From contig NZ_JAHFZZ010000006.1 in NCBI RefSeq assembly GCF_018603905.1, positions 186,001 to 250,000 on the forward strand: 64,000 bases of DNA, written 5' to 3'. Positions within the stretch are counted from its first letter, which is position 1. Each line of letters begins with the position of its first letter. A program made the translations under genes and the position numbers. This stretch comes from Nonomuraea sp. NEAU-A123 (GTDB lineage: Bacteria > Actinomycetota > Actinomycetes > Streptosporangiales > Streptosporangiaceae). Under the pieces are notes generated by a model. The model was not told where the DNA came from. It did not search any database and saw only the letters and a list, made by a program, of their open reading frames with translations. This document shows, in pieces, positions 2,595 through 60,066 of the stretch.

Positions 2595-2683
2595 CCCGAT
2601 TTTTCCGGATCTGACCAGGTCTGGGAGTGGCTGCTGCCCGCCTACCGGGCCCTTTTCCACCACTCCATCCGGAGAGATCAGTC

Positions 2684-3946
2684 ATGTCGCACGTCTCCGC
2701 GCGGCGGGGCACCTTCTACGTGTCCGTCGCCGCGACCGCCTGGGGCACCGGCGGTGCCGCCGGGTCCCTGCTCTTCCAGTCAGGCGGGCTCGGCCCCGTC
2801 GACGTCTCGTTCTGGCGCTACCTTCTGGGCGCCGCCTTCCTGTACGGGGCCGCCTGCCTGAGGTCGGCCTTCACCCGCCCGACGTCGGCTACTGTCCGCC
2901 CGACGTCGGCCGCCACCCGCCCGACGTCGGCCGCCACCCGCCCGACGTTGGTCACCACCCGCTGGGCGGGGGCAGTTACCCGCCTGAGGTCGGTCACCAC
3001 CAGCCTGAGGTCGTCCGCTGCCCACCTCACGTCCACCACCATCCGACCCACGGCAACCACCAACGGCGTCACGTCGGACGTCGTCCGGCCGGGTGATGTT
3101 GGCGGGTGGTGGCGTCGGAGTTCTCTCCTGGGTGGTGTCGGCGGGGGACGGCGTCGGCGTTCTCTGCCGAGCGATGGGGGCGGGGGCGGGCGGCGTCGTG
3201 GTTCTGTGCCGGGTCAGGTCGGCGGGGGGTGGGGTCGAGGTTTTCTGCCGGGTCGGGTCAACCGGCGGGTGCTGGTCGTCGGTGTCGGGATGGCCGTCTA
3301 TCAGACCGCCTACTTCGGCGCCATCGCGCAGTCCGGTGTGGCCGTCGCCACGGTGGTCACGATGGGCGCCACGCCGGTGTTCACCGCGCTGGGGAGCCGG
3401 TTCCTCCTGAGGGAGCACCTGGGCCGCGCCGCCCTCGCCGCGCTGGCGACGGCGCTGGGCGGCCTGTTCCTCCTCACCGGGGAGAGTGCCGCTGGGGACG
3501 TCGGTGGCGGCCGGCCGGCCGGGATCGCGCTGGCTCTGGTGTCCGCGGCCGGGTACGCCGCTGTCACCCTCTACTCGCGCCGCCACCACGACGACCCCCA
3601 GCGCACGGCTATGGGCGGGTTCGCCGTCGCGGCCGCCTGCCTCGCTCCGTTCGCCTTGGCCGGCGGGGTGCTGCCGGAGGCCGGAGTGACCCCTGTCGCC
3701 TTGCTGCTCTATCTCGGCGCGGTGCCGACCGCACTCGCCTACGCGCTGTTCTTCCGAGCCCTGACCGCGCTCAACGCCACAACCGTCTCGATCATCTCGC
3801 TCGGCGAAGCCGTCGGCGCGGCGGTGCTCGGGGTGGTGCTGTTCGGCGAGCGTCTCGCGCCCCTGGCATGGTGCGGGTGCGCGTTGTTGCTGGCGGCCGT
3901 GGTGGTGCAGGCCGTACAAGCAGGCCATACGACCGATAAGGATTAG
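2684..3946 (+). CDS. EamA/DMT-family transporter with a repeat insertion
   Basis: The 420-residue membrane protein consists of two EamA repeats, as in drug/metabolite exporters. Residues 1-63 carry the first helices (FYVSVAATAWGTGGAAGSLL, VSFWRYLLGAAFL) and residues 194-420 carry the rest (VYQTAYFGAIAQ, GGLFLLTGE, YLGAVPTALAYALFF, ISLGEAVGAAVLG). Between them, residues 64-193 are a hydrophilic low-complexity block built from tandem repeats (RPTSAAT heptads, then Arg/Gly-rich copies). Removing the block leaves about 290 residues, the normal family length. The ATG has GGAGA 8 nt upstream and a candidate attenuator precedes it. Likely an exporter of an amino acid or related metabolite; substrate not determinable. 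Confidence 0.8.
   Translation: MSHVSARRGTFYVSVAATAWGTGGAAGSLLFQSGGLGPVDVSFWRYLLGAAFLYGAACLRSAFTRPTSATVRPTSAATRPTSAATRPTLVTTRWAGAVTRLRSVTTSLRSSAAHLTSTTIRPTATTNGVTSDVVRPGDVGGWWRRSSLLGGVGGGRRRRSLPSDGGGGGRRRGSVPGQVGGGWGRGFLPGRVNRRVLVVGVGMAVYQTAYFGAIAQSGVAVATVVTMGATPVFTALGSRFLLREHLGRAALAALATALGGLFLLTGESAAGDVGGGRPAGIALALVSAAGYAAVTLYSRRHHDDPQRTAMGGFAVAAACLAPFALAGGVLPEAGVTPVALLLYLGAVPTALAYALFFRALTALNATTVSIISLGEAVGAAVLGVVLFGERLAPLAWCGCALLLAAVVVQAVQAGHTTDKD
2876..2980 (+). repeat. 21-nt tandem repeat inside the EamA gene
   Basis: Units begin at 2876, 2897, 2918, 2939 and 2960, each starting CGCCCGACGTCGG in the best copies; units 2 and 3 are identical. Diverged copies continue to about 3060. The period is a multiple of three and the array encodes Arg-Pro-Thr-Ser-Ala-Ala-Thr heptads, so the reading frame is kept. 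Confidence 0.9.
3111..3270 (+). repeat. 39/42-nt tandem repeat inside the EamA gene
   Basis: Four copies begin at 3111, 3150, 3192 and 3231. Each opens GG(C/G)GTCG.G followed by TTCTCT or a near variant, then a G-rich tail. Spacings of 39, 42 and 39 nt are all multiples of three. The array encodes Gly/Arg-rich sequence just before the third transmembrane helix of the transporter. Confidence 0.85.
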
Positions 3947-4092
3947 CGGTCGCGGAGCGGGGTGGCGATTGCGGCCGTCCTATGAGTTAGGGTCCGTACG
4001 GCGATGCTTGCCGTACCGTCGCTCCGCTCCCCGATTGAGCACACTTGACACTAAATGGGAACGGCGCTGACAAAGCATGCGTTGGAGGGATT

Positions 4093-6294
4093 GTGGCGTC
4101 GATTTCCGGAATAGTGAGAAACCTCCTGGATCGTCCGGGCGGGGTGAACCTCAGCCCGTACAAAAAGATCGTCAAGGCGGCGGCCGAACGAGCCGAACGC
4201 ATTGGCGCGCTTGAGGAGCTGCCCCAGCCGAGAATGGGTGATCTGGCCGAGTTCTGTGCTGTAGCGCGGGAGGCCGCCGACAGGACGCTCGGGCTCAGGC
4301 CGTACGACGTGCAGCTTTTGGGCACGCTCGCCCTTCTCGACGGGCAGATCGCCGAGATGGCGACCGGTGAGGGCAAGACGCTGTCGGGGGCGATGGCCGC
4401 GGCCGGGTACGCGCTGCAGGGCAAGCGGGTGCACGTGATGTCCGTCAACGACTACCTGGCCCGGCGAGACGCCGAGTGGATGGCGCCGTTCTATGAGGCG
4501 ATGGGTGTCACGGTGGGCTGGATCGACCAGAACTCCACACCCGACGAGCGGCGCGCGGCCTATGCGAAGGACGTCACATACGGACCCGTCAGCGAGATGG
4601 GCTTCGACGTGCTGCGCGACCGGCTGCGTACCGACGCGGCCGAGATCATCGTGCCCGCGCCCGAGGTGGCGCTGGTCGACGAGGCCGACTCGGTGCTCGT
4701 GGACGAGGCGCGGGTGCCGCTGGTCATGGCGGGGGCGGCCGACGAGGGCAGCGCGGTGCCCGAGATGGCGGCGCTGGTCAGGCAGCTGATCCGGGGCTAC
4801 CACTACGAGATCGACGACCAGGCGCGCAACGTCTACCTGACGACCAAGGGCGCCGACAGCGTCGAGGGCATGCTCGACGTCGAGCTGTACGACGAGAACG
4901 AGCCCGGCACGCTGATCGAGCTGAACCTGGCCCTGCACGCCCACGCCCTGCTCACCCGCGACGTCGACTACATCGTGCGCGACGGCAAGGTCCAGCTCAT
5001 CAACCCGTCGCGCGGCCGGGTGGCCGTACTCCAGCGCTGGCCCGACGGCCTGCAGGCGGCCGTGGAGGCCAAGGAGACGCTGCCGCCCAGCGAGAAGGGC
5101 GAGATCCTCGACTCGATCACCGTCCAGGGCCTGATCAAGCGTTATCCGCAGATTTCCGGCATGACCGGCACGGCGGTCGCGGTCAGCGAGCAACTCGGCG
5201 AGTTCTACGGCCTCAAGGTCGCGGTGATCCCGCCCAACCGGCCGTGCGTCCGGCAGGACGAGCCGGACCGTATCTATCCGACCGTTCCGGACAAGGACGC
5301 GGCGCTGGTCGAGGAGATCCAGGAGGCGCACGCCACCGGTCGGCCCATCCTCATCGGCACGCTCGACGTGGCCGAGTCGGAGAACCTGGCCAAGCTCCTG
5401 CAGCGGCGCGGCATGGAGCCCGTCGTACTCAACGCCAAGAACGACGCTGAAGAGGCCGCGATCATCGCCAAGGCCGGCGAGCGCGACGCCATCACCGTCT
5501 CCACACAGATGGCGGGCCGCGGCACCGACATCCGCCTCGGCGAGGGCGTCGCCGAACTGGGCGGCCTCTACGTGATCGGCTCGGGCCGCCACGCGAGCAG
5601 CCGCCTCGACGACCAGTTGCGCGGGCGCGCGGGCCGTCAGGGCGATCCCGGCGGTTCGGTGTTCTTCGTCAGCATGAAGGATGACCTCATCACCCAGTTC
5701 GTCCCCGACGAGCGGCCGCCCGCGGCCGACGCCGACGGCCTGGTACGCCACCGCCGCGGCGTCTACCTCGTGGGCCACGCCCAACGGGTCGCCGAGGGCG
5801 TCAACCTGGAGATCCACCGCAACACCTGGCGCTACACCCGCCTGCTGGAGCACCAGCGCGAGCTCATTCTGGAGTGGCGCGACAAGGTCCTGCACAGCGA
5901 CTCGGCGGCCAAGGCGCTGGCCGAGGCCGACCCCGAACGCTGGGAGGCGCTGCCGGAGGACACCCGCGACGAGACGGCCAGGCAGATCGTGCTGCACGCG
6001 ATCGACCGCTGCTGGACCGAGCACCTGGCGTTCCTGACCGACCTGCGCGAAGGCATCCACCTGCGGGCGCTCGGTCGGATGAGCCCGATCGACGAGTTCC
6101 ACCGGGAGGCCGTGGCGGAGTACAAGGCGCTGCTGACGGAGGTCGAACGCCGCTCGATGGAGTCGTTCGAGGCGCCGGAGCCCGACCTCAAGCGCCCCAC
6201 CGCGACCTGGACTTATCTGGTGCAGGACAACCCGTTCGGCACGGAGTGGGACAGGATCCTCAAGCGGGTGACATCCGCCACACGTCGCGGCTAG
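4093..6294 (+). CDS. secA2: Accessory Sec translocase ATPase SecA2
   Basis: The 733-residue protein aligns by eye along its whole length with mycobacterial SecA2. It has GLRPYDVQLLG, the Walker A motif MATGEGKT (about 89-96), NDYLARRDAEWM, Walker B DEADSVLVDEAR (from 196), the helicase motif STQMAGRGTDIRLG, QLRGRAGRQGDPG, and the SecA2-type C-terminus RPTATWTYLVQDNP. It lacks the long C-terminal linker and zinc-binding tail of housekeeping SecA1. It powers export of a subset of proteins through SecYEG. I chose GTG 4093, with GGAGGG just upstream (spacing only 3 nt), over TTG 4045, which has no ribosome binding site; start uncertain. No dedicated SecY2 or substrate gene adjoins it, as in mycobacteria. 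Confidence 0.93.
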   Translation: MASISGIVRNLLDRPGGVNLSPYKKIVKAAAERAERIGALEELPQPRMGDLAEFCAVAREAADRTLGLRPYDVQLLGTLALLDGQIAEMATGEGKTLSGAMAAAGYALQGKRVHVMSVNDYLARRDAEWMAPFYEAMGVTVGWIDQNSTPDERRAAYAKDVTYGPVSEMGFDVLRDRLRTDAAEIIVPAPEVALVDEADSVLVDEARVPLVMAGAADEGSAVPEMAALVRQLIRGYHYEIDDQARNVYLTTKGADSVEGMLDVELYDENEPGTLIELNLALHAHALLTRDVDYIVRDGKVQLINPSRGRVAVLQRWPDGLQAAVEAKETLPPSEKGEILDSITVQGLIKRYPQISGMTGTAVAVSEQLGEFYGLKVAVIPPNRPCVRQDEPDRIYPTVPDKDAALVEEIQEAHATGRPILIGTLDVAESENLAKLLQRRGMEPVVLNAKNDAEEAAIIAKAGERDAITVSTQMAGRGTDIRLGEGVAELGGLYVIGSGRHASSRLDDQLRGRAGRQGDPGGSVFFVSMKDDLITQFVPDERPPAADADGLVRHRRGVYLVGHAQRVAEGVNLEIHRNTWRYTRLLEHQRELILEWRDKVLHSDSAAKALAEADPERWEALPEDTRDETARQIVLHAIDRCWTEHLAFLTDLREGIHLRALGRMSPIDEFHREAVAEYKALLTEVERRSMESFEAPEPDLKRPTATWTYLVQDNPFGTEWDRILKRVTSATRRG

Positions 6295-6306
6295 CCGTAC
6301 CTGACA

Positions 6307-6334
6307 GAGGGTGGCAGGTATGCCTGCCACCCTC
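6307..6334 (+). terminator. Hairpin after secA2
   Basis: A perfect 12-bp inverted repeat, GAGGGTGGCAGG with loop TATG, begins 12 nt after the secA2 stop codon. No T-run follows, and the hairpin ends 5 nt before the ATG of the next gene. It may terminate secA2 transcription, or sit in the leader of the VOC gene and affect its translation. Confidence 0.55.
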
Positions 6335-6339
6335 GAACC

Positions 6340-6714
6340 ATGACAACGAAAGCGAAGCTCCTGGCCGTCACCATCGACTGCGCGGAGCCCAAGAAGATGG
6401 CCGAGTTCTGGCACCAGGTGACCGGGCTGGACATCCAGTATTCGGAGGACGAGTACGCCGCCGTGGGCGACGGTACGACGAACATCTACTTCGGCCGCGT
6501 CCCCGACCGCAAGCCGGTGGAGTGGCCCAGTTCGGACAAGCAGTTCCACCTCGACTTTCGGGTGCCGGATGTGGAGCGGGCTGTGGAGCAGTACATTGCG
6601 CTGGGGGCCACGAAGCCCGCGTTCCAGCCTGGGGTGACGGAGGAGAAGGTCGGGTGGATCGTGCTGCAGGATCCGGAGGGGCACGTGTTCTGCGTCTGTC
6701 CTGAGCAGTCCTGA
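6340..6714 (+). CDS. VOC/glyoxalase-family protein
   Basis: The 124-residue protein is a single vicinal-oxygen-chelate fold of the glyoxalase-like type common in actinomycetes. It opens LLAVTIDCAEPKKMAEFWHQVTGL (the first beta-alpha unit), has FHLDFRVPDVERAVEQYIALGA (second unit), and ends GWIVLQDPEGHVFCVCPE. Such proteins bind a metal or small ligand; many act in antibiotic resistance or detoxification. There is no ribosome binding site because a hairpin ends 5 nt before the ATG, so translation may be leaderless. Function unknown beyond the fold. Confidence 0.82.
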   Translation: MTTKAKLLAVTIDCAEPKKMAEFWHQVTGLDIQYSEDEYAAVGDGTTNIYFGRVPDRKPVEWPSSDKQFHLDFRVPDVERAVEQYIALGATKPAFQPGVTEEKVGWIVLQDPEGHVFCVCPEQS

Positions 6715-6915
6715 CTCGTCCCCAGTCAGGTGCCCGCCCTGGCGTGGAAAGGGCGGGCGGAGCTGGATGTTCCGTCATGCGGAAGACCGTGCCGGTACGG
6801 CAGGTACGTCCGTGATGAGAGGGATGTTTGGCCTAAAGGATGATTGCAGCACTTAGCTTCCCTCATAAGCTGGTGCAATGCTCTTGGAAGGATCCATGTC
6901 CCTGCGTGGGCGACG

Positions 6916-7800
6916 ATGACCTGGGTCGGCCTCGTGATCGCGCTGGCGGGGGCGCTCGGATACGCGTTCGGTGCGGCGCTGCAACAGTTCGAAGCCGTAG
7001 CGGAGGGCGCCTCCCTCAGACTGGTGAGGCGCCCTCGCTGGTGGATCGGCGGCGTCATCGGCTTCACCGGCGCGTGCCTGCACGCCGTGGCGCTGAGCCT
7101 TGCGCCACTGGTCGCCGTGCAGCCGATCAGCGTGGCCACTCTGGTGTTCGCCGTGCCGCTGGCGGCGCTGATGTACGGCCGTCGCCCGTACAAAGCGGAA
7201 ATATTTGGCTCCATCGCGGTGGCCGTCGGGTTGCTCTGGCTCATGGTGCTCCTCCCGGCGCACAACGTGACGCCGAAACTCGGCGACGGGGCCGCGATCG
7301 GGTTCATCGCCGTGATCGGCGTGATCGTCCTCGCCGCCGAACTGATCGCCAACAGACTGCGTGGACCCGGCAAGGCCCTCGTCCTGTCCGTGGGAGCCGG
7401 CGCCGTGACCGCGAGCGTGTCGACGTTCGTCCGGGCGGTCGGGGGTGGCATGCAGGGGGACTGGGGCAGGCTGTTGCACTGGTTCACACTCGCCGTGCCC
7501 GTGTTGCTGGTCTGCGCGGTCGTGCTGCTGCAACGGTCGTACGCGGTGGGCTACTTCGGCGTCGCGTACGCGGGCGTGCAGGTCGTGGACCCGATCACCT
7601 CAGTGCTCGCCGGCGCGATCCTCCTCGGCGAACCCCTCCCGACCAACCCCTCCACCGCGATCCCCGCTGTGCTGGCGGCCGCGCTCACCATCGGCGGAAC
7701 CATCACACTCAGTCGGTTGTCCCCTGATCACTCCCATCCTGTGCCGGTGGACGCCACCCGAGGATCTCGTTCATTGACCGCAACATCAGATCTGGTATGA
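6916..7800 (+). CDS. DMT-family integral membrane transporter
   Basis: The 294-residue protein has about nine to ten hydrophobic helices, starting MTWVGLVIALAGALGYAFG. LAPLVAVQPISVATLVFAVPLAALMYGRR and VVDPITSVLAGAILLGEPL are the features of the DMT/NIPA-like transporter group found in actinomycetes. The likely substrate is a small metabolite or cation. I took ATG 6916 because hydrophobic helix 1 begins there, although the ribosome binding site is weak. The last 30 codons overlap the convergent end of the FAD monooxygenase gene by 92 bp, unusually long for this window. The C-terminal tail is hydrophilic and not conserved in the family. Confidence 0.78.
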   Translation: MTWVGLVIALAGALGYAFGAALQQFEAVAEGASLRLVRRPRWWIGGVIGFTGACLHAVALSLAPLVAVQPISVATLVFAVPLAALMYGRRPYKAEIFGSIAVAVGLLWLMVLLPAHNVTPKLGDGAAIGFIAVIGVIVLAAELIANRLRGPGKALVLSVGAGAVTASVSTFVRAVGGGMQGDWGRLLHWFTLAVPVLLVCAVVLLQRSYAVGYFGVAYAGVQVVDPITSVLAGAILLGEPLPTNPSTAIPAVLAAALTIGGTITLSRLSPDHSHPVPVDATRGSRSLTATSDLV

Positions 7801-9208
7801 CCCGCGAAGCCACCGCCACCCCCACATTCCGAAGCCCAACGGCCACCGGGTTGCGCAGCTTGGTCATCTTGCAGATGGTCATCGCCATGCGCACGATGCT
7901 GGCGGTCCGCTCCAGCCGCGCAGCCGTATAGGCAGCAAGCCCGTCTCCCACATCGACGCACCCACCTGCCAGCCCCGCACCCGCCGGACCCCCGATTACC
8001 GGACCCGCGTCTGCCGGGCCTCCGTCTGCCGGGCCTCCGGCTACCGGGTCTTCACCTGCCGGACCCCCGGCTGCCAGAGTCCTGCCGGGCAGAGCTCCAC
8101 CGGGTAGGCCCTCGCCTTGGAGGCGAGGCTCCGCATCGACGCGCCGATCGCGGTTGTCCCTGTCTGGGAGGCCATCACCTGACCGGTCCCGGCCTGCGAG
8201 ATCCCCACCCAGAGGACGGCCACCTGGAGAAGCGACACCGGCGTTGAGATCACCTCTGGCCCGGAGTTCGCCCCCGACCGCGAGCTCCCCGCTGGCGGCA
8301 AGGGCGAGGATGATGGCGTCCTCGATGGCCTGGCAGGCGCCCTGGCCGAGGTTCGGGGTCATGGGGTGGGCCGCGTCCCCGATGAGCGCCACCCGGCCTC
8401 GGTGCATGGCGGGCAGCGGAGTGTCGAAGTAGTAGAGGTCGTTGCGGAGGATCCGCGCGTTGTCCGACGCGCGGATCAACGCGGGGATCGGATCGTGCCA
8501 GCCGTCGAACCTGCGCAACAGCTCCTCGCGCTCGTCCGCGTGTACGGCTCCGGTGGGTGACAGGTCGGTCGCGTAGTAGTAGACGAGTTCGTCGGTCAAC
8601 TGATGAGCCCCGAACAAGAGACCCTTGCCCCACGTCTCCGTGCTCTGGATCTCGCGGTCGAGCGCGGGCACCAGCCCCCGCCAGGCGGTGACCCCCGAGT
8701 ACACGGGACCGGGATGCTCGGGGAACAGCGCGGTGCGCGTCGCCGAATGGATGCCGTCAGCCGCCACGATCAGATCGGCCTCCATGTCACCATCGCCAGT
8801 ACGGACGACGCCCCTGTCGGCGTCCACGCCGGAGACGGTGGTGTTCAAGCGCAGGTGCTCGTGGCCCAGACCCTCCACGAGCACATCCACGAGGTCGGCG
8901 CGGAGCAGGACGACGATCGAGTCGCCGTACAGCTTCTGAGCCTTGTCCTCGGTGGTGTGCGTCAGCCAGCGCCCGTTCTGATGCCGTACCCCCACCTGAC
9001 CCTGGATCCTGGACAGCTTGCGCACGCGGTCGCCCAGGCCGATCACGTCGAGTGCCTTCAACGCGTTGGCGGCGATGGCCACGCCGGACCCGACAGGCTC
9101 CAGCTTGGGCGTGCGTTCGAGCACGATCACGTCCCAGCCCTTGCGACGTAACGCGATCCCCGCCGTCAGCCCGCCGATGCCGCCACCGATCACCACAGCT
9201 CTGGCCAT
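7709..9208 (-). CDS. FAD-dependent monooxygenase (PHBH-fold) with a low-complexity insertion
   Basis: The 499-residue flavoprotein has GGGIGG at 8-13 (FAD binding), the ADGIHS element near 150 and the GD motif LIGDAAHPMTPNLGQG at 275-290. This is the class A flavin hydroxylase pattern (salicylate or 6-hydroxynicotinate hydroxylase-like). Family members are near 390 residues. The surplus is residues 307-420, a Gly/Pro/Ala/Asp repeat block (GGPADGGPADAGPVIGGPAG) placed between the GD-motif helix and the conserved AAYTAARLERTASIVR helix. The ATG has GGGGAGG 7 nt upstream. It is transcribed divergently from a TetR gene across three palindromes, so it is probably repressed by that TetR and induced by a small aromatic or drug-like ligand. 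Confidence 0.85.
   Translation of the reverse strand: MARAVVIGGGIGGLTAGIALRRKGWDVIVLERTPKLEPVGSGVAIAANALKALDVIGLGDRVRKLSRIQGQVGVRHQNGRWLTHTTEDKAQKLYGDSIVVLLRADLVDVLVEGLGHEHLRLNTTVSGVDADRGVVRTGDGDMEADLIVAADGIHSATRTALFPEHPGPVYSGVTAWRGLVPALDREIQSTETWGKGLLFGAHQLTDELVYYYATDLSPTGAVHADEREELLRRFDGWHDPIPALIRASDNARILRNDLYYFDTPLPAMHRGRVALIGDAAHPMTPNLGQGACQAIEDAIILALAASGELAVGGELRARGDLNAGVASPGGRPLGGDLAGRDRSGDGLPDRDNRDRRVDAEPRLQGEGLPGGALPGRTLAAGGPAGEDPVAGGPADGGPADAGPVIGGPAGAGLAGGCVDVGDGLAAYTAARLERTASIVRMAMTICKMTKLRNPVAVGLRNVGVAVASRVIPDLMLRSMNEILGWRPPAQDGSDQGTTD
7949..8290 (-). repeat. Low-complexity repeat block inside the monooxygenase gene
   Basis: About 340 bp of degenerate 12-15-nt repeats around CCGGGCCTCCG(T/G)CTGC on the plus strand encodes Gly-Gly-Pro-Ala-type units. 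The block begins and ends in frame, inside a conserved enzyme domain, and the flanks match ordinary class A flavin hydroxylases. Confidence 0.75.
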
Positions 9209-9220
9209 TCCTGCCTCCCC

Positions 9221-9280
9221 AACTACGTCTGTAGTTTTCACCATACTACGCCTGTAGTTCGCTCCCACTACCGGTGTAGT
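9221..9280. promoter_or_regulatory. Three-palindrome operator between the monooxygenase and TetR genes
   Basis: Three copies of ACTAC-N4-GTAGT lie at 9222-9235, 9245-9258 and 9267-9280; the first extends to AACTAC...GTAGTT. Their centres are 23 and 22 bp apart, close to two DNA turns, so three dimers could sit on one face. They fill the space between divergent starts and overlap a TAGTCT -10-like box of the TetR gene. This is the expected layout of an autoregulated TetR repressor. Confidence 0.85.
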
Positions 9281-9290
9281 CTTAGTGATC

Positions 9291-10172
9291 GTGAAGCGCT
9301 CTGAGACCGTCGCGGACGCGGCAATCACCCTGCTGGCGGAGCGTGGCATGCGCGGGCTCACCCACCGAGCCGTCGACGAGGCCGCCGGCCTCCCACCCGG
9401 ATCAACCTCCAACCTGGCCCGCACCCGCGCGGCACTCCTGGAACTGACGCTTTCCCGCCTCACGGATCTGGAAGAACAGGCTTTGGCCTCGATCTACCGA
9501 TTCCAGAGCTCGACCGCCCCGGCCTGGCCAGCCGACGCGTTCCGGGGGACTAATCCGAGGGGCGGCACGGCTGGTTCGTCGGCGGAGTCTGGTTCGTCGG
9601 GTGGGACAGCTGACTCGCTCCGGAAGTCTGACTCGACGGGTGGGACAGCTGGTTCGGTCCGGGGGGCTGACCCGTCAGGTCGGACGGTCCAAGCGTCCGG
9701 GGGGCATGAGTCATCTCAGGGGTCTGAGCTGTCGCAGGCGTTCGAGCTGGTCCGGGCGTCGGAGCTGCCAGGCCGGGTGACCGAGTCGTCCTACGAGACC
9801 GGGCTGTCGGGTCAGATGGCTGAAGCGATTCTGGAGTCCGATTTGCCGGGGTTGGTGGCTGAGGCGCTGTACGTGCAGCTCGCCGATCGTAGGCGCACTC
9901 TGGCCCGGTACGAGCTGGCGCTGGAGGCGACCAGGCGGCCCGAGTTGCGCAAGATTTACGACGAGGCAGGGCGGCGCTTCCGTGATCCCGTCGTCGGGTT
10001 GCTGGCCGCGCTCGGGTCGCCGGATCCGGTGCGGCATGGGCGGCAGTTGGTGGCGTTCGGCGAGGGCATCATGTTCGATTCCATCGCGGGGGCAGGTGAT
10101 GCGCCCTCCCTCGACGATCTGCGGGAGGCCGTGCGGGAACTCCTGCGAGGGATGCTGGGGTCGGGCGTCTGA
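9291..10172 (+). CDS. TetR-family regulator with a low-complexity insertion
   Basis: The 293-residue protein has a standard N-terminal helix-turn-helix (SETVADAAITLLAERGMRGL, then HRAVDEAAGLPPGSTSNLAR; residues 4-45) and a C-terminal ligand domain (ALYVQLADRRRTLARYELAL onward, from about 190). Between helix 4 and the ligand domain, about residues 73-188 are a Ser/Gly/Thr-rich repeat block (SGGTADS, TGGTAGS, PSGRTVQ). Without it the protein would be near 180-190 residues, normal for TetR. The GTG at 9291 lies 8 nt after TAGTCT and is probably leaderless; GTG 9285 is the alternative. It likely represses itself and the divergent monooxygenase. Confidence 0.82.
   Translation: MKRSETVADAAITLLAERGMRGLTHRAVDEAAGLPPGSTSNLARTRAALLELTLSRLTDLEEQALASIYRFQSSTAPAWPADAFRGTNPRGGTAGSSAESGSSGGTADSLRKSDSTGGTAGSVRGADPSGRTVQASGGHESSQGSELSQAFELVRASELPGRVTESSYETGLSGQMAEAILESDLPGLVAEALYVQLADRRRTLARYELALEATRRPELRKIYDEAGRRFRDPVVGLLAALGSPDPVRHGRQLVAFGEGIMFDSIAGAGDAPSLDDLREAVRELLRGMLGSGV
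9507..9854 (+). repeat. Low-complexity repeat block inside the TetR gene
   Basis: Degenerate copies of GGTTCGTCGG(G/C)(T/G)GG and GACTCG.CGGGTGGGACAGCT recur, about 15 and 45 nt apart; the phrase CGGGTGGGACAGCTG occurs twice (near 9599 and 9638). The frame is kept throughout. The block separates the DNA-binding and ligand-binding domains. Confidence 0.75.
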
Positions 10173-10204
10173 GGTGGCGCCAGAGGGCGGTTGTGGCAGG
10201 GCGC

Positions 10205-10348
10205 CTGCGGGCCTGTCTGCGCTTCACGGAGCTCGCGAGGCGGCGGGTCTGTCTGCGTTTCGCGGGGCTTGTGAGGTGGCGGGTCTGTCCGCGCTTCACG
10301 GAGCTTGTGAGGTGGCGGGCCCGTCCGCGCGCTTCGCGGGACCCGCGT
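10205..10348 (+). repeat. Four tandem copies of a 36-nt repeat between genes
   Basis: Four copies of about 36 nt, typified by GGCGGGTCTGTCCGCGCTTC then ACGGAGCTTGTGAGGT, fill the space between the convergent TetR and pseudokinase-WD40 genes. Copy 4 ends against the stop codon of the WD40 gene. Its style (GC-rich, period a multiple of three) matches the intragenic repeat blocks on either side, but here it is non-coding. Confidence 0.85.
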
Positions 10349-10350
10349 GC

Positions 10351-13236
10351 TCAGCACACCGGTCGATACGGCACCTCGGACAGGTACTCGTTCCAGTCCG
10401 GCTGTGAGAGGCCGCCGTACCGGAAGCAGATCGACGCCGCTGAGCGGGCTGGGTCGGGTGGTGGTGTCGCGTGGGCGAGGTCGATGGTGAGGACCGTGCC
10501 GTGGTCGGCCAGTACGCGGAGCCAGCGTCCGTCCGGGGCGAGGGCGGCCTGGGCGGGGTGGTCGGTGCCGGTGGCCGGCACCTGGCGGTCCGTGAGGCGG
10601 GTGCCGTCTGCGACGCGCCAGACCCGGACGCGGTCGCTGTCCGTGCTGGCCAGCAGTTGACCGTCGGTGCTGAAGCGGAGGTGACCGGGTGACGGCCGGA
10701 GTCGCGCGGGGAGCACGGGTACGCCGTTCAGCGCGTAGATCTGCACCCCGGTCTCCTCGGCGATCGCCACCCGCTCACCCTCGGGGCTGAACACCGCGTA
10801 CTCCCACGGCATCCTGTCCAGCCACGGCGCCGGGGTGCGGGCGCCCGTGGACAGGCGTACGACCTCCGAACGCGTCCCCGCGAACACCAGCGCCACCCTG
10901 TCACGCGGCCCCACCACCACATATTGGCCGACGAACGTGGCCCGGCCGGTCCGCAGGTTCCAGGCCCAGCGCTCGCCAGACTGGCGGGCCGCGGCGAACA
11001 GCAGCCCGCCCCCCGGACTGAACCAGGCCGACTGCTGCCCCGGCGCGCCCAGCCCCCGGCCGAAGGGCGGTCCCACGCCTGCGCCCGAGGTCGTGTTCCA
11101 CAGGTACGACCGGTCGACGCCGACGAGCGCCAGCGTCTGGCCGTCGGGGGACCAGGCCATCGCCCGTACGCTCTGGGCGGGACCGGCGGTCGTGGCCAGT
11201 TGCCTGCCGGAAAGGGTGTCGTACACCCGGAGTGTCCCGTCGGTCAGCGCGGCCAGCCGGGTGCCGTCGTCGCTGAGGGCGTCGAGCGAGCGGGCGCCCC
11301 CGAACGGGGCGGCGAACACGTCCACCGCCGGATCGGCCGCCGAGTCCGCCAGCGCGGCACGGGCCTCCGCGACCGGGGCCAGGCGCCACGCGGCCAGGCT
11401 CAGCCTGCGCGCCGTCACGGGGTCGGCCGCCCGCAGCGCCCGCGCCCTGGACGCCGCCACCCTGGCCATGGCCTGGTCGAGCCGCCCGTCGGCCGAGCCG
11501 TTCTGCCAGATGGCGACGACGATCGCCGCCAAGACCGCGACGAGTGTCACCGAGGCCAGGACCGCCATGGCCCGGCGCCGGCCGCGGGCCCGGCCGCGCA
11601 CCAGCGCGCGTCCCCCGTCCAGGAACGCCTGCTCCGCGGCGCTCAACGTCACCCGCCGCCGCCCGCTCGCCGCCCACACCAGCGCCCTGTCCAGCTCGTC
11701 CTCCTGGAACAGGTCGGTCTCCCGCCGCCCGCCCGCCTCCCACCGCCGTGCCGCCCTGGTCAGGTCCCGGTGTACGGCGAGGCCGTCGCGTTCGGCGTCG
11801 AGCCACTCGTGCAGGCGCGGCCAGGCCCGCAGGAGTGCCGCATGAGCGATGATCACGCCGTCCCCGCCGGGAGCGCGGCTCTGGTCGGCCAGCTCCGGCT
11901 CGGGGTTCTGTGCGGCGGGGGTGTGGCTAGGGCTGGGGGAGTTCGGGCCGTGGTTCTGCACGGCGGGGGTCTGGCGAGGGCTGGTGGAGTTCGGGGCGTG
12001 GCTCTGCGCGAGGTCAGATGAGTTCTGCGCGGCCAGGCTTGGGTGCGGTGTGGGTGCGGCCAGGCTCGGGTTGGGGGCAGGCGTGGACAGGGTCGGGTGG
12101 AGGGCGGGTGCGCTGGGGTTGTGGTTCGGCGCGGTGGGTGCGCTGGGGCTGTGGTTGGGTGCGGCGGGGGAGCTCGGGTCGTGGGTCTGGGTGATCAGGC
12201 CCGCTTCGGTGTACGTCGTGAGGACGCGGTCCATGGCGGCCTGTTCCGGAGGGCGGCCGGTGACCAGTTCGGTACGGGTGGCGCGACGGCGGGTGTCGGT
12301 GCCGTCGGGGGCCATCCCCACCAGGCGCAGGAACACCTCCGGCACCAGGTCCTGGTCCGCCCGGCTGAGCTGGAGATAGAGGCTCTCCGCCCGCGCGCCC
12401 AGCGGCGGGTCGTCCACAGGCTCCGGCGGCAGCAGGCGCCCTTGCTGGGACTGCGGCACATCGAGCAGCGACAGCAGCAGCTGATGCGCACTCGGCCGCC
12501 GATCCGGGTCCCGCCGGAGCGCCGCCAGCACGAGCTCCCGAAGCGGCCGATCAAGCCGATCGAGCAGCCGATCGGACTGATCAACCGGCCGGCCCCGAAC
12601 AGGTGCCCGAGACGGCTCGTCACGCGACCGGCCCGCCACGGGCGCCTGGTCACGCGACCGGTCCGCCACGGGCACCTGGTCACGCGACCGGCCTGATACG
12701 GGCGCCTGGTCAGGTAATCGGTCCTGCCCGTCGGGCGGCGGGAATGCGCCGGAGGGGCCATAGGCCGCGAACACCAGCAGCCTGCCCCATCCCCGCACAT
12801 CCCCCGGCGCCCCACTCCCATCACCCCCGAGGCCGAGCCCGACCAGCCGCGGCCCCTCAGCCCCCAGCACGACCCGGTCCGGCGTGAGCCCCCCGTGCAC
12901 CGCCCCAGCCTCATGGATCGCCGCCAGCGCGGTGGCCGTGGCCGCCGCCAGCAGGTACAGGTCGTCCCCTTCGTACGGCCCGCGCCGCCCGACCACCTCC
13001 CCCAGCGTCGGCCCGGGGATGTACTCGCTGACCAGATACGGCACATCCCCATCGAGACAGGCGTCCACCACCCGCGCGACAGACCGCGCCCGCACCTGCA
13101 TGGCCGCCTTGACCTGGAACGAGGGCCGAGAAGGGAGAAGGGTGAGCGCATACCGAGTGCCCGACTCGTCGTAAGCGTCATGGACGGCGGCGCCGAGCCG
13201 GGAGCCTAACCAGTAGCCCCCCAGCCGGTCAGTCAT
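10351..13236 (-). CDS. Pseudokinase / winged-helix / transmembrane / WD40 protein
   Basis: The 961-residue protein begins with a protein-kinase fold (residues 1-260: YLVSEYIPGPTLGEVV, AIHEAGAVHGGLTPDRVVL, LAALRRDPDRRPSAHQLL). The ATP-binding Lys position reads ALTLLPS, the HRD loop reads HGG and the DFG position reads GLG, so the kinase is probably inactive. Residues 285-545 resemble the helical/winged-helix region that follows the NTPase in STAND-type proteins (VFLRLVGMAPDGTDTRRRA, HAALLRAWPRLHEWL), but no P-loop is present. A transmembrane helix (556-577) follows, then WD40-like blades to the end (MAWSPDGQTLALVG, FSTDGQLLASTDSDRVRVW). Two repeat blocks interrupt it (172-222 and 352-460). 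Likely a membrane-anchored signalling or scaffold protein. Confidence 0.75.
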   Translation of the reverse strand: MTDRLGGYWLGSRLGAAVHDAYDESGTRYALTLLPSRPSFQVKAAMQVRARSVARVVDACLDGDVPYLVSEYIPGPTLGEVVGRRGPYEGDDLYLLAAATATALAAIHEAGAVHGGLTPDRVVLGAEGPRLVGLGLGGDGSGAPGDVRGWGRLLVFAAYGPSGAFPPPDGQDRLPDQAPVSGRSRDQVPVADRSRDQAPVAGRSRDEPSRAPVRGRPVDQSDRLLDRLDRPLRELVLAALRRDPDRRPSAHQLLLSLLDVPQSQQGRLLPPEPVDDPPLGARAESLYLQLSRADQDLVPEVFLRLVGMAPDGTDTRRRATRTELVTGRPPEQAAMDRVLTTYTEAGLITQTHDPSSPAAPNHSPSAPTAPNHNPSAPALHPTLSTPAPNPSLAAPTPHPSLAAQNSSDLAQSHAPNSTSPRQTPAVQNHGPNSPSPSHTPAAQNPEPELADQSRAPGGDGVIIAHAALLRAWPRLHEWLDAERDGLAVHRDLTRAARRWEAGGRRETDLFQEDELDRALVWAASGRRRVTLSAAEQAFLDGGRALVRGRARGRRRAMAVLASVTLVAVLAAIVVAIWQNGSADGRLDQAMARVAASRARALRAADPVTARRLSLAAWRLAPVAEARAALADSAADPAVDVFAAPFGGARSLDALSDDGTRLAALTDGTLRVYDTLSGRQLATTAGPAQSVRAMAWSPDGQTLALVGVDRSYLWNTTSGAGVGPPFGRGLGAPGQQSAWFSPGGGLLFAAARQSGERWAWNLRTGRATFVGQYVVVGPRDRVALVFAGTRSEVVRLSTGARTPAPWLDRMPWEYAVFSPEGERVAIAEETGVQIYALNGVPVLPARLRPSPGHLRFSTDGQLLASTDSDRVRVWRVADGTRLTDRQVPATGTDHPAQAALAPDGRWLRVLADHGTVLTIDLAHATPPPDPARSAASICFRYGGLSQPDWNEYLSEVPYRPVC
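11857..12183 (-). repeat. Pro/Ser/Ala-rich repeat block in the pseudokinase-WD40 gene
   Basis: Degenerate repeats encode NHSPSAPTAP/NHNPSAPALH and later QTPAVQNHGP/HTPAAQNPEP. The block interrupts the helical region just before the conserved HAALLRAWPRL helix. The frame is kept. Confidence 0.75.
12571..12723 (-). repeat. 30-nt tandem repeat in the pseudokinase C-lobe
   Basis: Near-identical 30-nt units containing GGTCACGCGACCGG recur at about 12646, 12676 and 12706 (plus-strand view), encoding decapeptides of the form RSRDQAPVAG. The array sits between the kinase activation region and the last kinase helices. Confidence 0.85.
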
Positions 13237-13935: not shown

Positions 13936-15134
<1,199 letters not shown>

Positions 15135-15138
<4 letters not shown>

Positions 15139-16295
15139 ACGAGGCGGACATCAAGCACCGCATAGACGCCTTTCGAGGCGCGAACGACCCAGAAAACCGG
15201 CTGGAGTTCCTGCGGGCCAGGTTCGACGCCGGGCTGGCGTGGGTCTGGTTCCCCGAGGGGCTCGGCGGGCTGGGCGTGTCGCGGGAGCTGCAGCAGGTCG
15301 TCGAGCGGGAGCTCGCCGACACGCCCCAGCTCAACACCGGCGTGCAGGGCATCGGCCTGGGCATGGCGGCGCCGACGATCCTGGCGTTCGGCACGGACGA
15401 GCAGCGGCGCCGCTTCCTCCGGCCGCTGTGGACGGGCGAGGAGATCTGGTGCCAGCTCTTCAGCGAGCCTGGCGCGGGGTCCGACCTGGCGACGCTGGCC
15501 ACCAAGGCGGTCAGGGACGGCGACGAATGGGTCGTCGACGGCCAGAAGGTATGGACGTCCGGCGCGCACCACTCCCGGTGGGCGATCCTCGTGACTCGTA
15601 CCGACCCGGACGTGCCCAAGCACCGCGGCATGACGTACTTCATCTGCGACATGCACGCGCCGGGCGTCGAGGTGCGCCCGCTGCGGCAGATCACCGGGGA
15701 GGCCGAGTTCAACGAGGTGTTCCTCACCGGCGTGCGGCTCTCCGACGACCTGCGGCTCGGTGAGGTCGGCGACGGCTGGCGGGTCGCCCAGACCACGCTG
15801 ATGAACGAGCGCGTCGCGATCGGCGGCGCCCCCGTACGGCGCGGCGGCGGCATGATCGGCCCCGTGCTCGACACCTGGCACGAGCACCCCGAGCTGCGCA
15901 CGCACGACCTGCACCAGCGGCTGCTGTCGCTGTGGGTGGAGTCGGAGGTGACCCGCCTGTCCGGGGTACGGCTGCGCGAGCAGCTCGTCGCGGGGCAACC
16001 CGGTCCGGAGGGGTCGGGCATGAAGCTGTCGTTCGCCAAGCTGAACCAGGCGCTGTCGGGCCTCGACGTCGAGCTCAAGCGCGACCTCGGCTACGACGAC
16101 TGGACCTTCCGCCGCTCGGAGGACGTCGACTTCTACGGGCGTGGCGCCGGCTACCGCTACCTGCGCGCCAAGGGCAACTCGATCGAGGGCGGCACCTCGG
16201 AGATCCTGCGCAACATCATCTCCGAACGGGTGCTCGGCCTACCCTCCGAACCCCGCGTCGACAAGGACGTCCCTTGGAAGGACCTGCCCCGATGA
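15135..16295 (+). CDS. Acyl-CoA dehydrogenase (second of three, catalytic-Glu type)
   Basis: The 386-residue protein has the FadE signatures LFSEPGAGSDLATLATKA, WVVDGQKVWTSGAH, and near the end IEGGTSEILRNIISERVLGLP, which holds the catalytic Glu of the usual acyl-CoA dehydrogenase type. GTG 15135 overlaps the upstream stop codon (GTGA) and has GAGG 6 nt before it. The next gene overlaps by ATGA. With the shorter partner downstream it probably forms an alpha2beta2 heterotetramer, as known for the actinobacterial steroid enzymes ChsE1-ChsE2; that pairing is inferred from gene order. Confidence 0.88.
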
Positions 16296-17356
16296 CCCTG
16301 CTGTACTCGGAGGTCGAGGAGGAACTGCGCGCCGCCGTGCGCGGCCTGCTCGCCGACCGCTGCCCGCCCGCCGCGGTGCTCAAGCGGGTGGAGTCCGACC
16401 CCTACGACCTCGACCTGTGGAAGACGCTCGCCGGGGAGATCGGCGTGGCGGGCCTGCTCATTCCCGAGCAGTACGGAGGCGCGGGCGCTTCGGCCCGCGA
16501 GGCCGCTGTCGTGCTGGAGGAGCTCGGCCGGGGCGTCACACCGGTCCCGTTCTTCACCAGTGCCGTCCTGGCCACCCACGCGCTGCTGGCGACGGGCTCG
16601 GCGGACCTGCTGGGCGAGCTGGCCGAGGGCCGGACGACCGCGGCCCTGGTGGTGTCGTTCGCCGCCTCGCCGTACCGGCCGTGGCGGGGTTCGTCGGTGA
16701 ATCTGGACGGCGGGACGCTGTCCGGGACCGTGTCCGCGGTCGCGGGGGCGGAGGTGGCCGACGTGCTGCTGGTGCCGGTCGGCGGGGAGCTGTACGCGGT
16801 CGAGGCCGCGGACGCCGCCGTCGAGGTCATACCGTCGCTGGATCTGACCCGTCCGGTCGCCACGGTCCGCATCGTAGGGGCGCCCGCGCGGTTGCTGGGG
16901 CCGTGCGATCTGGCCGAGGTGCTGCGGTTCGGTGCGGGTCTGCTCGCCTCCGAGCAGCTCGGGGTGGCGGAGTGGTGTCTGGACACCACGCTCGCGTACG
17001 TGAAGGAACGCCACCAGTTCGCCCGCCCGATCGGCTCGTTCCAGGCCATCAAGCACCGGCTGGCCGATCTCTGGCTCGACGTGGTCAGGGCGAGGGCCGC
17101 CGCCCGTGCCGCCGCCGGTGACGACTCGGCCGTGACGGTCGCCGTGGCCCAGGCGTGGAACGCGGGTGTCGCCGTACACGCGGCCGAGGAGGCCCTGCAG
17201 TTGCACGGCGGGATCGGGATGACGTGGGAGCACCCCCTGCATCTCTACCTCAAGCGCGCCAAAGCCTGCGAGACGGCGCTCGGCACACCCGGAGACCACC
17301 GGGAGGCGCTGGCCTCACTCGCCGACGTGCCCGGCCCCGAGGGAGGTCAGCAGTAG
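16292..17356 (+). CDS. Acyl-CoA dehydrogenase-like partner subunit (third of three)
   Basis: The 354-residue protein has the dehydrogenase fold (LLIPEQYGGAGASAREAAVV, VKERHQFARPIGSFQAIKHR, LQLHGGIGMTWEHPLHLYL) but no EG.(T/G).E catalytic segment; its end reads KRAKACETALGTPGDHREAL. Short members lacking the Glu serve as FAD-holding partner subunits in heteromeric actinobacterial dehydrogenases. It starts inside the upstream stop codon (ATGA) and its end overlaps the convergent TetR gene by 42 bp. The role as partner of the preceding gene is inferred. Confidence 0.85.
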   Translation: MTLLYSEVEEELRAAVRGLLADRCPPAAVLKRVESDPYDLDLWKTLAGEIGVAGLLIPEQYGGAGASAREAAVVLEELGRGVTPVPFFTSAVLATHALLATGSADLLGELAEGRTTAALVVSFAASPYRPWRGSSVNLDGGTLSGTVSAVAGAEVADVLLVPVGGELYAVEAADAAVEVIPSLDLTRPVATVRIVGAPARLLGPCDLAEVLRFGAGLLASEQLGVAEWCLDTTLAYVKERHQFARPIGSFQAIKHRLADLWLDVVRARAAARAAAGDDSAVTVAVAQAWNAGVAVHAAEEALQLHGGIGMTWEHPLHLYLKRAKACETALGTPGDHREALASLADVPGPEGGQQ

Positions 17357-17905
17357 GTCGGCGAAGTGCTTGCCCACCTGGGCGCCGGTCAGCGGTCCGT
17401 CCGTGTGGTACCAGGTGCCCAGGTGGTGCACCGAGCCGAAGAAGTAGTCGACGACGAGCTCGGCCGGGACGCGTTCGCTGAACACCCCCTCGCGCTGGCC
17501 CTCGATCACCAGGTCGCGGAAGCGCTCGTGGTAGCGGCGGCGCTCGGCTCGTACGGTCTTGCGCGTCTCGGGCGCGAGCAGGTGCATCGACCGGAAGAAG
17601 ATCTTGGAGTCGTCGAGGTTCGCGGTGGTGGTCTCGATGACATCGGCCGCCGCCGCGTGCAGCCGCTCGGCGACCGTGCCGGGGCCGTCGGCGATCTCGG
17701 TCAGGCGCTCCATCTGCATGCGCAGCACCCGGCCGTAGATCTCATGCAGCAGATCATCCTTGGAGTCGAAATAGTGGTACATGGCGCCTTTGGTGACGCC
17801 GGCGGCCAGTACGATCTCCTGCACGGAGGCGCCCTCAAAGCCCCGCTCCGCGAAAAGCCGGGTCGCTTCGCCCAGCAGCCTCCTGCGTACCGGTTCGTCC
17901 TTCAC
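17315..17905 (-). CDS. TetR-family repressor of the acyl-CoA dehydrogenase operon
   Basis: The 196-residue regulator has the TetR DNA-binding domain at its N-terminus: RRLLGEATRLFAERGFEGAS, QEIVLAAGVTKGAMYHYF and DSKDDLLHEI. The rest is a helical ligand domain of usual length. The GTG start has no ribosome binding site and lies 12 bp from an ACCGAC..GGTCGGT palindrome like that before the dehydrogenase operon. It probably represses both itself and the three convergent dehydrogenase genes and is released by an acyl-CoA or acid ligand. Regulation is inferred from the paired operators. Confidence 0.85.
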   Translation of the reverse strand: MKDEPVRRRLLGEATRLFAERGFEGASVQEIVLAAGVTKGAMYHYFDSKDDLLHEIYGRVLRMQMERLTEIADGPGTVAERLHAAAADVIETTTANLDDSKIFFRSMHLLAPETRKTVRAERRRYHERFRDLVIEGQREGVFSERVPAELVVDYFFGSVHHLGTWYHTDGPLTGAQVGKHFADLLLTSLGAGHVGE

Positions 17906-17916
17906 GTGTCACAGCA

Positions 17917-17932
17917 TACCGACTGGTCGGTT
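17917..17932. promoter_or_regulatory. TetR-type palindrome before the TetR gene
   Basis: TACCGACTGGTCGGTT carries ACCGAC and GTCGGT arms. It matches the site at 13909-13924 at the other end of the dehydrogenase operon in 13 of 16 positions. Placed 12 bp upstream of the GTG, it fits autoregulation. Confidence 0.75.
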
Positions 17933-18076
17933 GATGCCATCCCAGCAGGTGCTATTTCCGTAACCTTAGGGTCCCCTTGCTTCCGTTGGAGTCAGGTGGG
18001 GTATTAATTAACTCGGCGAGGGATCTTCGGCGTGGCAGATCCCGATGGTTGCAGCGACTCATTGGGGGAGTTTGCC

Positions 18077-18841
18077 GTGCCTGGTGGCTCTATCTACGTG
18101 CAGCAGGACGAGAAGTTCACTGGGGCATCCCCTCAGTGGTACTACGAGAAGTTCTGGCGCGAGGACGCCAACAACCGCAAGCGATCAAGGATGATCAAGG
18201 CGGCCGTTGGCTTCGCGGCGGGCATCGGCCTGGCGCTCCGCTTCGACCTGGGGCTCACCGCCCTCTACGGCCTCGCGTTCGCGGGCCTCGTGGCCGGCAT
18301 CGACTGGTATGTCGCCTGGCGCTCCTTCCGCCTGACCGCGGTCTGGCGGGGCCGGCGGCGCGGCGAGGTGATCACCGGCCGGATGCTCCGCCGCTCGCTC
18401 GGCAAGCACGGCTACAGCGTCCTCGACGGCCGGGCTATCAGGGAGCAGGCGTCCATCGACCACCTCGTGATCGGCCCCGGCGGCGTGTGGGTCATCGACA
18501 ACGAGTCGTGGAGCCCCGACACCGAGATCGCCACCTACTGCGACCGGCTCTTCTTCGGCGAGAAGTACGGCAGCAAGGTGGCCAAGTCCCTGGTCGAGAC
18601 CTCCAACGCCTTCGCCGAGTTGCTGACCCGCGAGACCGGGATCCCGGTGACGATCACCCCGCTGCTCGCCGTGCACTGCGGCCTGCTGCCGCGCGGCGGC
18701 CAGGTCACCGCCGAGGGCCTCACGCTGCTCAAGCCGAGCCTGGCGGCCAAGCGCATCAAGGCGATCGCCGGAGAGGTGCTCGACGAGCAGCAGATCGAGC
18801 TGCTCACCCGCACCGCCGCTCGGGAGCTCCAGCGTGCCTGA
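18077..18841 (+). CDS. NERD-domain membrane protein
   Basis: The 254-residue protein has two hydrophobic segments near residues 40-76 (KAAVGFAAGIGLALRF, LYGLAFAGLVAGIDWYVAW). A nuclease-related domain follows: GEVITGRMLRRSLGKHGYSV, EQASIDHLVIGPGGVWVIDN. NERD domains belong to the PD-(D/E)XK superfamily, but the usual D..(E/D)xK triad is not clear: the strand ends DNESW rather than (E/D)xK, so nuclease activity is doubtful. GTG 18077 is chosen over GTG 18032 because GGGGGAG ends 6 nt before it. It converges on the VWA gene with a 5-bp gap. Cellular role unknown. Confidence 0.78.
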   Translation: MPGGSIYVQQDEKFTGASPQWYYEKFWREDANNRKRSRMIKAAVGFAAGIGLALRFDLGLTALYGLAFAGLVAGIDWYVAWRSFRLTAVWRGRRRGEVITGRMLRRSLGKHGYSVLDGRAIREQASIDHLVIGPGGVWVIDNESWSPDTEIATYCDRLFFGEKYGSKVAKSLVETSNAFAELLTRETGIPVTITPLLAVHCGLLPRGGQVTAEGLTLLKPSLAAKRIKAIAGEVLDEQQIELLTRTAARELQRA

Positions 18842-18846
18842 CTCGC

Positions 18847-59595: not shown

Positions 59596-60032
59596 AGGAG
59601 CCCCGCGAGAAGCTGGGATGCCGGGTCGAGATCGTGGACATGCTGCACAGTCCTGCTCGTACTCGAGCCGTCGGCGAGTTGCTGATCGGACAGCGTGGGA
59701 TGGTGGCTGATGTCCTACGTGGTGGCACGCTCGCACTGGTCGCACTGGACGGTGACTGGGCCGACCTTCCGGGCGAGGTGCGGCGCTGGCCCGTTCACTG
59801 GGACGATCTACTGGTCTCCCCAATAGAGAGCCAGCCAACTGCCCCTGCTACCGATTATCGCATTGGATTGTCCGGCTCGGGTCGCGAAACGGTACAGCAC
59901 GCAGTGGCCGCAGGCACTAAGAAGAGCCTATGTGGAGAGGCGGTTTATCCTCTACCAATCTGTGGTTGGACACTTTCTTTCTCTCCCACGGCCACACGCA
60001 CGTGTCCGCGCTGCACCCGTCTGGCGGTGTAG
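59592..60032 (+). CDS. Unknown protein with C-terminal cysteine pair, third of three
   Basis: The 146-residue protein is not recognised. The first half has a beta-rich segment (RGMVADVLRGGTLALVALDG, DWADLPGEVRRWPVHWDDLL). The C-terminal half has Cys residues in KKSLCGEAVYPLPICGW and TCPRCTRL, which could form a zinc ribbon. It is coupled to the previous gene (ATGA) and convergent with the SEC-C gene. Confidence 0.7.
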   Translation: MKEPREKLGCRVEIVDMLHSPARTRAVGELLIGQRGMVADVLRGGTLALVALDGDWADLPGEVRRWPVHWDDLLVSPIESQPTAPATDYRIGLSGSGRETVQHAVAAGTKKSLCGEAVYPLPICGWTLSFSPTATRTCPRCTRLAV

Positions 60033-60066
60033 GTGTCGTAAGTCAGCCAGTGAGACGGCTGCACTG

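Follow-up and report, generated by a model that had tools for sequence, protein, structure and literature searches.

Bacterial coding minisatellites (VNTRs) consist of head-to-tail units that lie in-frame in genes and vary in length between close relatives; a 2014 review by Zhou and others is said to deal with them. Rickettsia palindromic elements are in-frame insertions in conserved proteins as well, and they are copies of shared families. As far as the available text of the source goes, the closest published phenomenon to the repeats described here is the amino-acid tandem repeats of archaeal Borgs (PMC9879509), in which genic units are divisible by three, turn over fast and have independent origins, and the encoded peptides are commonly disordered. 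The same text describes a hotspot in which as many as five proteins bear repeats, and Borg repeats that are perfect at the amino-acid level, A-rich, extrachromosomal, and virtually absent from the host (PMC9879509). For prokaryotic low-complexity regions, the accessible portion of PMC6821194 describes segments rich in Gly, Ala, Pro, and Ser that may arise by slippage, and its title argues for their conservation and function. Among the matches listed in a search of open-licence literature, in the portions of text available, no report on such repeats in Nonomuraea or Streptosporangiaceae was found.

The repeats analyzed here are probably a new instance of a known phenomenon, coding minisatellites, with an unusually clear allelic series. 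Like VNTRs they are head-to-tail, in-frame, and variable in length, compared here between species with one genome per species; the proteins that carry them are an exporter, an enzyme, and regulators. Their periods in the cluster (15 to 48 nt) are within the minisatellite range of 10 to 100 nt. They share fast turnover, independent origins, and a cluster of repeat-bearing proteins with the Borg repeats, but compared with the available account of the latter (PMC9879509) they are GC-rich, degenerate rather than perfect (69 to 89% match within the cluster arrays), located on a contig syntenic with relatives, and distributed genus-wide. The segments are rich in Gly, Ala, Pro, and Ser, similar to the low-complexity regions treated in the accessible portion of PMC6821194; however, the Nonomuraea blocks are not conserved.

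Repeat blocks in a 10-kb gene cluster

The window, a stretch of 64,000 nucleotides (C56:186001-250000), belongs to a 660-kb contig (C56; GC approximately 70%) of the 12.7-Mb genome (G000) of a soil actinomycete, and its nearest named relatives are Nonomuraea. Its first 6 kb are matched in 54 of 54 genomes of the genus, its own included. N. guangzhouensis (G053; locus L045; hereafter the sibling) is the nearest relative, with 94.6% DNA identity over the chained alignment and differences at 8.4% of fourfold sites; a third species (G043; locus L121) has 92.0% identity and differs at 14% of fourfold sites. C56 chains over long stretches with G053, G043, and a further genome (G024). At the studied locus G043 lacks the FAD and TetR genes, so that window positions 7804 and 10346 are adjacent there (the sites are present in 43 other loci for FAD and 46 for TetR), and it also lacks most of an acyltransferase gene (504 to 1607), with window positions 549 and 1552 lying 6 bases apart.

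Five repeat-rich, in-frame blocks of 52 to 129 residues, each read on the strand of its gene, were delimited in four genes, and TRF reports eight non-overlapping arrays between 2849 and 12712. The EamA-family exporter gene (ORF at 2627 to 3946, forward strand; Pfam EamA, 3.8e-27) carries a block of 129 residues (387 nt) at 2873 to 3259, with arrays of period 21 at 2849 to 3018 and period 39 at 3088 to 3259. The FAD-dependent monooxygenase gene, taken from MARAVVIGG (7709 to 9208, reverse strand; 499 residues plus stop; Pfam FAD_binding_3, 9.4e-22), has a 113-residue block (339 nt) at 7946 to 8284 that contains a weak period-15 array at 7983 to 8075. In the TetR-family regulator gene (9285 to 10172, forward strand; 295 residues; Pfam TetR_C_31, 1.7e-27; 44 orthologues), the loop with its insert spans 127 residues (381 nt) at 9483 to 9863 and includes a period-39 array at 9586 to 9685. 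An intergenic array of period 36 (10207 to 10330) lies between the TetR gene and the convergent kinase-like/nSTAND1/WD40 gene (10351 to 13236, reverse strand; Pfam nSTAND1, 1.7e-21; WD40, 9.9e-9; Pkinase, 1.1e-5, below its cut-off). The latter gene holds two blocks: block 1 (11863 to 12177; 105 residues, 315 nt), with arrays of period 48 at 11904 to 12007 and period 30 at 12103 to 12184, and block 2 (12556 to 12711; 52 residues, 156 nt), with a period-30 array at 12619 to 12712.

Seven of the eight arrays have TRF scores of 108 to 171, and the FAD array scores 67. In chance controls of one run each (600-kb Markov and 630-kb triplet-shuffled sequence), no array reached a score of at least 100, the threshold for a strong array used throughout; weaker arrays numbered 16 and 36, with maximum scores of 73 and 97, respectively. 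The FAD array alone is thus within the chance range, and the FAD block is supported instead by comparison with relatives.

Block length in relatives was defined as the gap between conserved flanks, both of which were required, in 79 of 80 named loci (L120 was missing) and in G043. The EamA gap measures 387 nt in the window, -3 to 90 nt (median 12) at 36 other loci, 390 nt in the sibling, and 87 nt in G043; the FAD gap measures 339 nt in the window, -12 to 99 nt (median 0) at 43 other loci, and 621 nt in the sibling; and the TetR gap measures 381 nt in the window, 51 to 174 nt (17 to 58 residues; median 69 nt) at 46 other loci, and 327 nt in the sibling. For kinase block 1 the gap is 315 nt (three other loci, -6 to 45 nt; sibling, 228 nt; G043, 6 nt), and for kinase block 2 it is 156 nt (four other loci, -15 to 0 nt; sibling, 6 nt; G043, 93 nt), a fifth locus (L044, 670 nt) having been dropped as a spurious pairing. 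Every measured gap except that of L044 is divisible by three. Of the loci examined, N. guangzhouensis is alone in having four of the five blocks, with other lengths and units, and G043 has two short versions, in EamA and kinase block 2. The TetR protein has 295 residues in the window, approximately 276 in the sibling, and 178 to 230 in 43 other orthologues, as counted after a filter of 170 to 330 residues. Array length therefore varies between species that are 94.6% identical, and at the intergenic array the sibling is approximately 107 nt longer, which is not a multiple of three. Shorter repeats occupy the same loops elsewhere (the FAD loop of L041 and L063, the TetR loop of L060), and their presence in a few other species suggests that these loops are generally tolerant. 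Since the other loci are short or empty and the sibling lengths differ, the long blocks are young, being found only in a small clade and differing even between siblings.

The initial annotation of this DNA, made from its letters and open reading frames, had described repeat blocks of 50 to 130 residues, in multiples of three, in four unrelated neighboring proteins, together with an intergenic array. The TRF arrays and the gap lengths bear this out, and the short gaps in relatives agree with its placement of the blocks at loops and their absence from most homologues; as the blocks are not conserved in relatives, they do not behave as ordinary conserved domains. Its list of units was recovered by TRF for 21, 39, 15, 30, and 36 nt, but a 45-nt FAD unit is not shown by TRF, and the 48-nt kinase-like array had been missed.

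Array density and the reading frame

The array habit is general, though uneven. In three stretches of the same genome (1.03 of 12.7 Mb), strong arrays amount to 44.4 (C56), 21.9 (C12), and 64.1 (C1) per Mb; other Nonomuraea samples give 47.5 (G053), 50 (G043), 57.5 (G024), 30 (G010), and 40 (G006), and two genomes from other families of the class give 20 and 80. Around the SecA gene, with 68 of the 80 named loci pooled, the values per Mb are 57 for other Nonomuraea, 82 for Streptosporangium, 137 for Planobispora/Planomonospora, 6 for Herbidospora/Acrocarpospora, 54 for Microbispora/Microtetraspora/Planotetraspora, 58 for Saccharothrix, and 34 for Actinokineospora. In an Escherichia coli K-12 control, 200 kb contain 4 strong arrays (20 per Mb), and arrays scoring at least 50 amount to 40 per Mb. 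The corresponding values for 27 other Nonomuraea loci are 57 and 262 per Mb, which means that a large excess is seen for weak arrays only. On C56 itself, arrays outside the window recur from 288 kb and are found upstream at 48 to 49, 129, and 138 kb, with array groups at 288 to 290, 308 to 335, and 401 to 411 kb, and sibling indels comparable to those of the cluster occur all along the part of the contig aligned to the sibling.

Periods were classified in four contig samples, which overlap by synteny so that the counts are not independent, using codon-model gene calls and a separate class for possible 5' extensions. Within called genes the period is divisible by three in 45 of 45 strong arrays, some cluster arrays not being among these 45 because the home-made gene caller trims repeat-rich starts (EamA and TetR among them), and in 235 of 246 arrays scoring at least 50. 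Between genes the fractions are 8/15 and 24/56, a lean toward multiples of three that is not significant against one third (P = 0.09 for both counts). "Mixed" and "possible extension" arrays (60 of 362 at a score of at least 50; 21 of 81 strong) are outside both the coding and the intergenic counts. Genic units divisible by three, with most intergenic ones not so, are thus a feature shared with the Borg repeats as the available text presents them (PMC9879509), but the rule is looser here, since some weak genic arrays break it and roughly half of the intergenic arrays have periods divisible by three. Labeling of arrays as genic or intergenic by translated similarity was rejected, because wrong frames also match in GC-rich conserved DNA: with the sibling in the database 29 of 56 labels were ambiguous, and when G024 was the only genome compared, arrays known to be genic were labeled intergenic.

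Strong arrays occur at approximately 31 per Mb of called coding sequence versus approximately 121 per Mb of intergenic sequence, and the ratio of 0.26 lies near one third, the value predicted if frame filtering were the sole influence. Among the strong arrays of the 27 other Nonomuraea loci, counted irrespective of whether they are genic, 15 of 30 have a period divisible by three. Indels between G000 and G053 were counted as repeat-associated when they lay no more than 30 bases from a TRF array in either species (approximately 333 kb aligned). Among those of at least 9 nt in coding sequence, 35 of 43 are multiples of three, and outside called genes 11 of 26 are; ten chain gaps of more than 3 kb were dropped, and six indels at gene edges, of which three are multiples of three, were left out of both counts.

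Origin of the units and constraint on the peptides

For a test of seeds, 24 sibling differences were selected and 23 could be scored. The unit matches the own site of the shorter allele better than any other site in 13 of the 23, and better than the median in 20; where the own site was not best (10/23), two neighboring sites of one array tie and eight have no seed by score. In the protein at C56:318102-318660, 26-residue repeats stand at a place where the sibling has the DES-RTRD stretch just once. At C56:286602-289878, a protein of 1091 residues carries two more large repeat insertions (180 and 222 nt, both in frame), neither of which is present in the 962-residue sibling orthologue; here ALAPGSALTLDLAQG repeats correspond to one APGSALAP in the sibling, with no clear seed by DNA score. 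Copying of the units from the conserved flanks was not supported by 26 flank tests, in which the cluster units showed no resemblance to the flanks (best, EamA left, P = 0.023; EamA right, P = 0.069). Kinase block 2 is 150 nt longer than in the sibling, which is exactly five 30-nt units, and has no seed; because the right end of the 93-nt loop of G043 is common with the window, the difference may equally well reflect a loss in the sibling or a gain in the window.

A search of the whole genome returned no match for MutS (MutS_V) and one match for NucS. The absence of MutS is general in this phylum, and loops of at least 15 nt are not known as usual substrates of mismatch repair; for these reasons, and because NucS ignores indels, a special repair deficiency explains little as a cause. 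That NucS leaves indels uncorrected is stated in the available text of PMC8228993.

Between the siblings, dN/dS (Nei-Gojobori) is 0.14 in the flanks of EamA, 0.23 in those of TetR and FAD, and 0.24 in those of the kinase-like gene. The block ratios, which are rough owing to inflated dS, are 0.76 for EamA, 0.67 for TetR (alignment unsure), 0.50 for FAD, and 1.05 for kinase block 1; the value of 0.33 for kinase block 2 comes from nine codons, too few to use. The higher dS of blocks than of flanks (for instance, 0.49 versus 0.145 in FAD) most likely results from units aligned to non-equivalent units. Taken roughly, these ratios suggest weak constraint on the four blocks. AlphaFold2 was run on 40 sequences of TetR, the one block modeled of five, and gave a confident TetR fold with 157 of 295 residues at a pLDDT of at least 90 and a block-mean pLDDT of 39 to 59 at residues 81 to 170; the fold is predicted to stay intact around a low-confidence segment that is itself predicted to be disordered.

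Proposed tandem duplication and competing explanations

We consider it likely that the blocks are coding minisatellites produced by genome-wide tandem duplication and filtered by selection for frame and for tolerant loops. Short stretches, mostly of 12 to 80 nt, would be tandemly duplicated across the chromosome, probably by slipped-strand replication or unequal exchange, a route that we only infer because 10 of 23 events have no winning own site, the units are unlike the flanks, and kinase block 2 is seedless. Copies would then diverge and be gained and lost quickly, as is seen between the sibling species, and inside genes mainly frame-keeping events would survive, as the array and indel counts show. 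Surviving blocks would sit at loops already variable between species, which is the case for these genes, and their peptide would be weakly constrained, on the rough ratios of four blocks, and disordered in the TetR prediction. The 10-kb cluster would represent the high end of the distribution across the genome, to which the proximity of several tolerant genes would contribute.

Raised repeat formation within these 10 kb above the genome-wide rate, caused, for example, by replication stalling or breaks, is the alternative for which most can be said, though we regard it as unlikely. The cluster is the densest 10 kb of the 630 kb scanned, with P = 0.0002 for strong arrays unmerged (7/28), P = 0.0098 when merged within 500 bp (5/23), and P = 0.02 for unmerged arrays scoring at least 60. 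The corresponding region of the sibling has four strong arrays, whose units are partly different, and G043 lacks FAD and TetR at the locus. Furthermore, in 28 other Nonomuraea loci the orthologues of the four genes hold arrays at approximately twice the density of the DNA around them (strong arrays, 9/31, P = 0.067; score of at least 60, 23/84, P = 0.011). However, P rises to 0.44 when strong arrays are merged within 1.5 kb (3/19), and to 0.22 and 0.96 at a score of at least 60 merged within 500 bp and 1.5 kb; much of the excess therefore consists of several arrays in one gene. Of the six countings, three thus give nominal significance, in a window that was picked for its clustered look, and we read the cluster as modest; the other array groups on the contig also speak against a hotspot. 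The "local process" of the initial annotation is mostly wrong, the density of the contig being that of the genus, and its other suggestion, a protein-level habit of linker expansion, stands. Its statement that genes from 13 kb onward are free of such repeats holds for strong arrays inside the window but fails for the same contig from 288 kb and upstream.

That the disordered peptides are selected linkers, kept for docking or tuning, is very unlikely. At four of the five sites two species keep an in-frame block, and dN/dS is below one in the FAD and EamA blocks, but the siblings differ in sequence, unit, and length, block dN/dS is about two- to fivefold the flank values, and the other loci examined manage without blocks of such size. 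A mobile or dispersed repeat family of the Rickettsia palindromic element type could account for blocks with clean edges, relative to relatives, in several unrelated genes; however, no second copy of the EamA block exists in the whole 12.7-Mb genome, and searches with the units of the strong C56 arrays (1.03 Mb of own genome and 400 kb of sibling; E, 1e-3) hit nothing beyond the site of origin or the sibling. No sequence shared between blocks was detected by comparing the EamA block with the whole genome and the strong C56 units with 1.03 Mb. The blocks therefore resemble the Rickettsia elements as in-frame inserts, but in these searches no block matched a second site, which makes insertion of such a family vanishingly improbable and agrees with the initial view that this is not one copied element. 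Just as remote is an assembly artefact: tandem repeats are a known cause of assembly errors, according to the available text of PMC6868369, but the separate assembly of the sibling has arrays at four of five sites, so an artefact of one genome, raised at the outset as a way the finding could fail, is hard to sustain; in addition, the reading frames are uninterrupted, and many assemblies contain arrays of this kind.

A broader proposal is that unusually active tandem duplication in Nonomuraea and related actinomycetes keeps adding disordered loops to ordinary enzymes, and that stretches such as these 10 kb are local hotspots of it. We hold this to be unlikely; if true, in-frame repeat growth would be one of the main causes of length differences between the proteins of sibling species. 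Because close species carry the same loop empty, short, or long, the locus provides a natural allelic series for studying how repeats come to be accommodated in folded proteins and how weakly selection opposes them as long as the reading frame is preserved.

Lengths and starts of repeat-bearing genes are easily misannotated. The longest FAD ORF (to 9463) overlaps the TetR start in antisense (9285 to 9463), and in the sibling this extension and the remainder of the gene are in different frames; for both reasons the true start is likely MARAVVIGG, and automatic annotation may overextend the gene. In N. jiangxiensis (L055), the FAD/TetR pair is surrounded by five strong arrays of its own (14993 to 19157), apparently mostly at sites other than those of the window. 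Toward the end of the window, G+C falls to 0.539 at 60001 to 61000, compared with 0.62 to 0.63 in the neighboring kilobases and approximately 0.69 over most of the window, and this segment is possibly acquired DNA.
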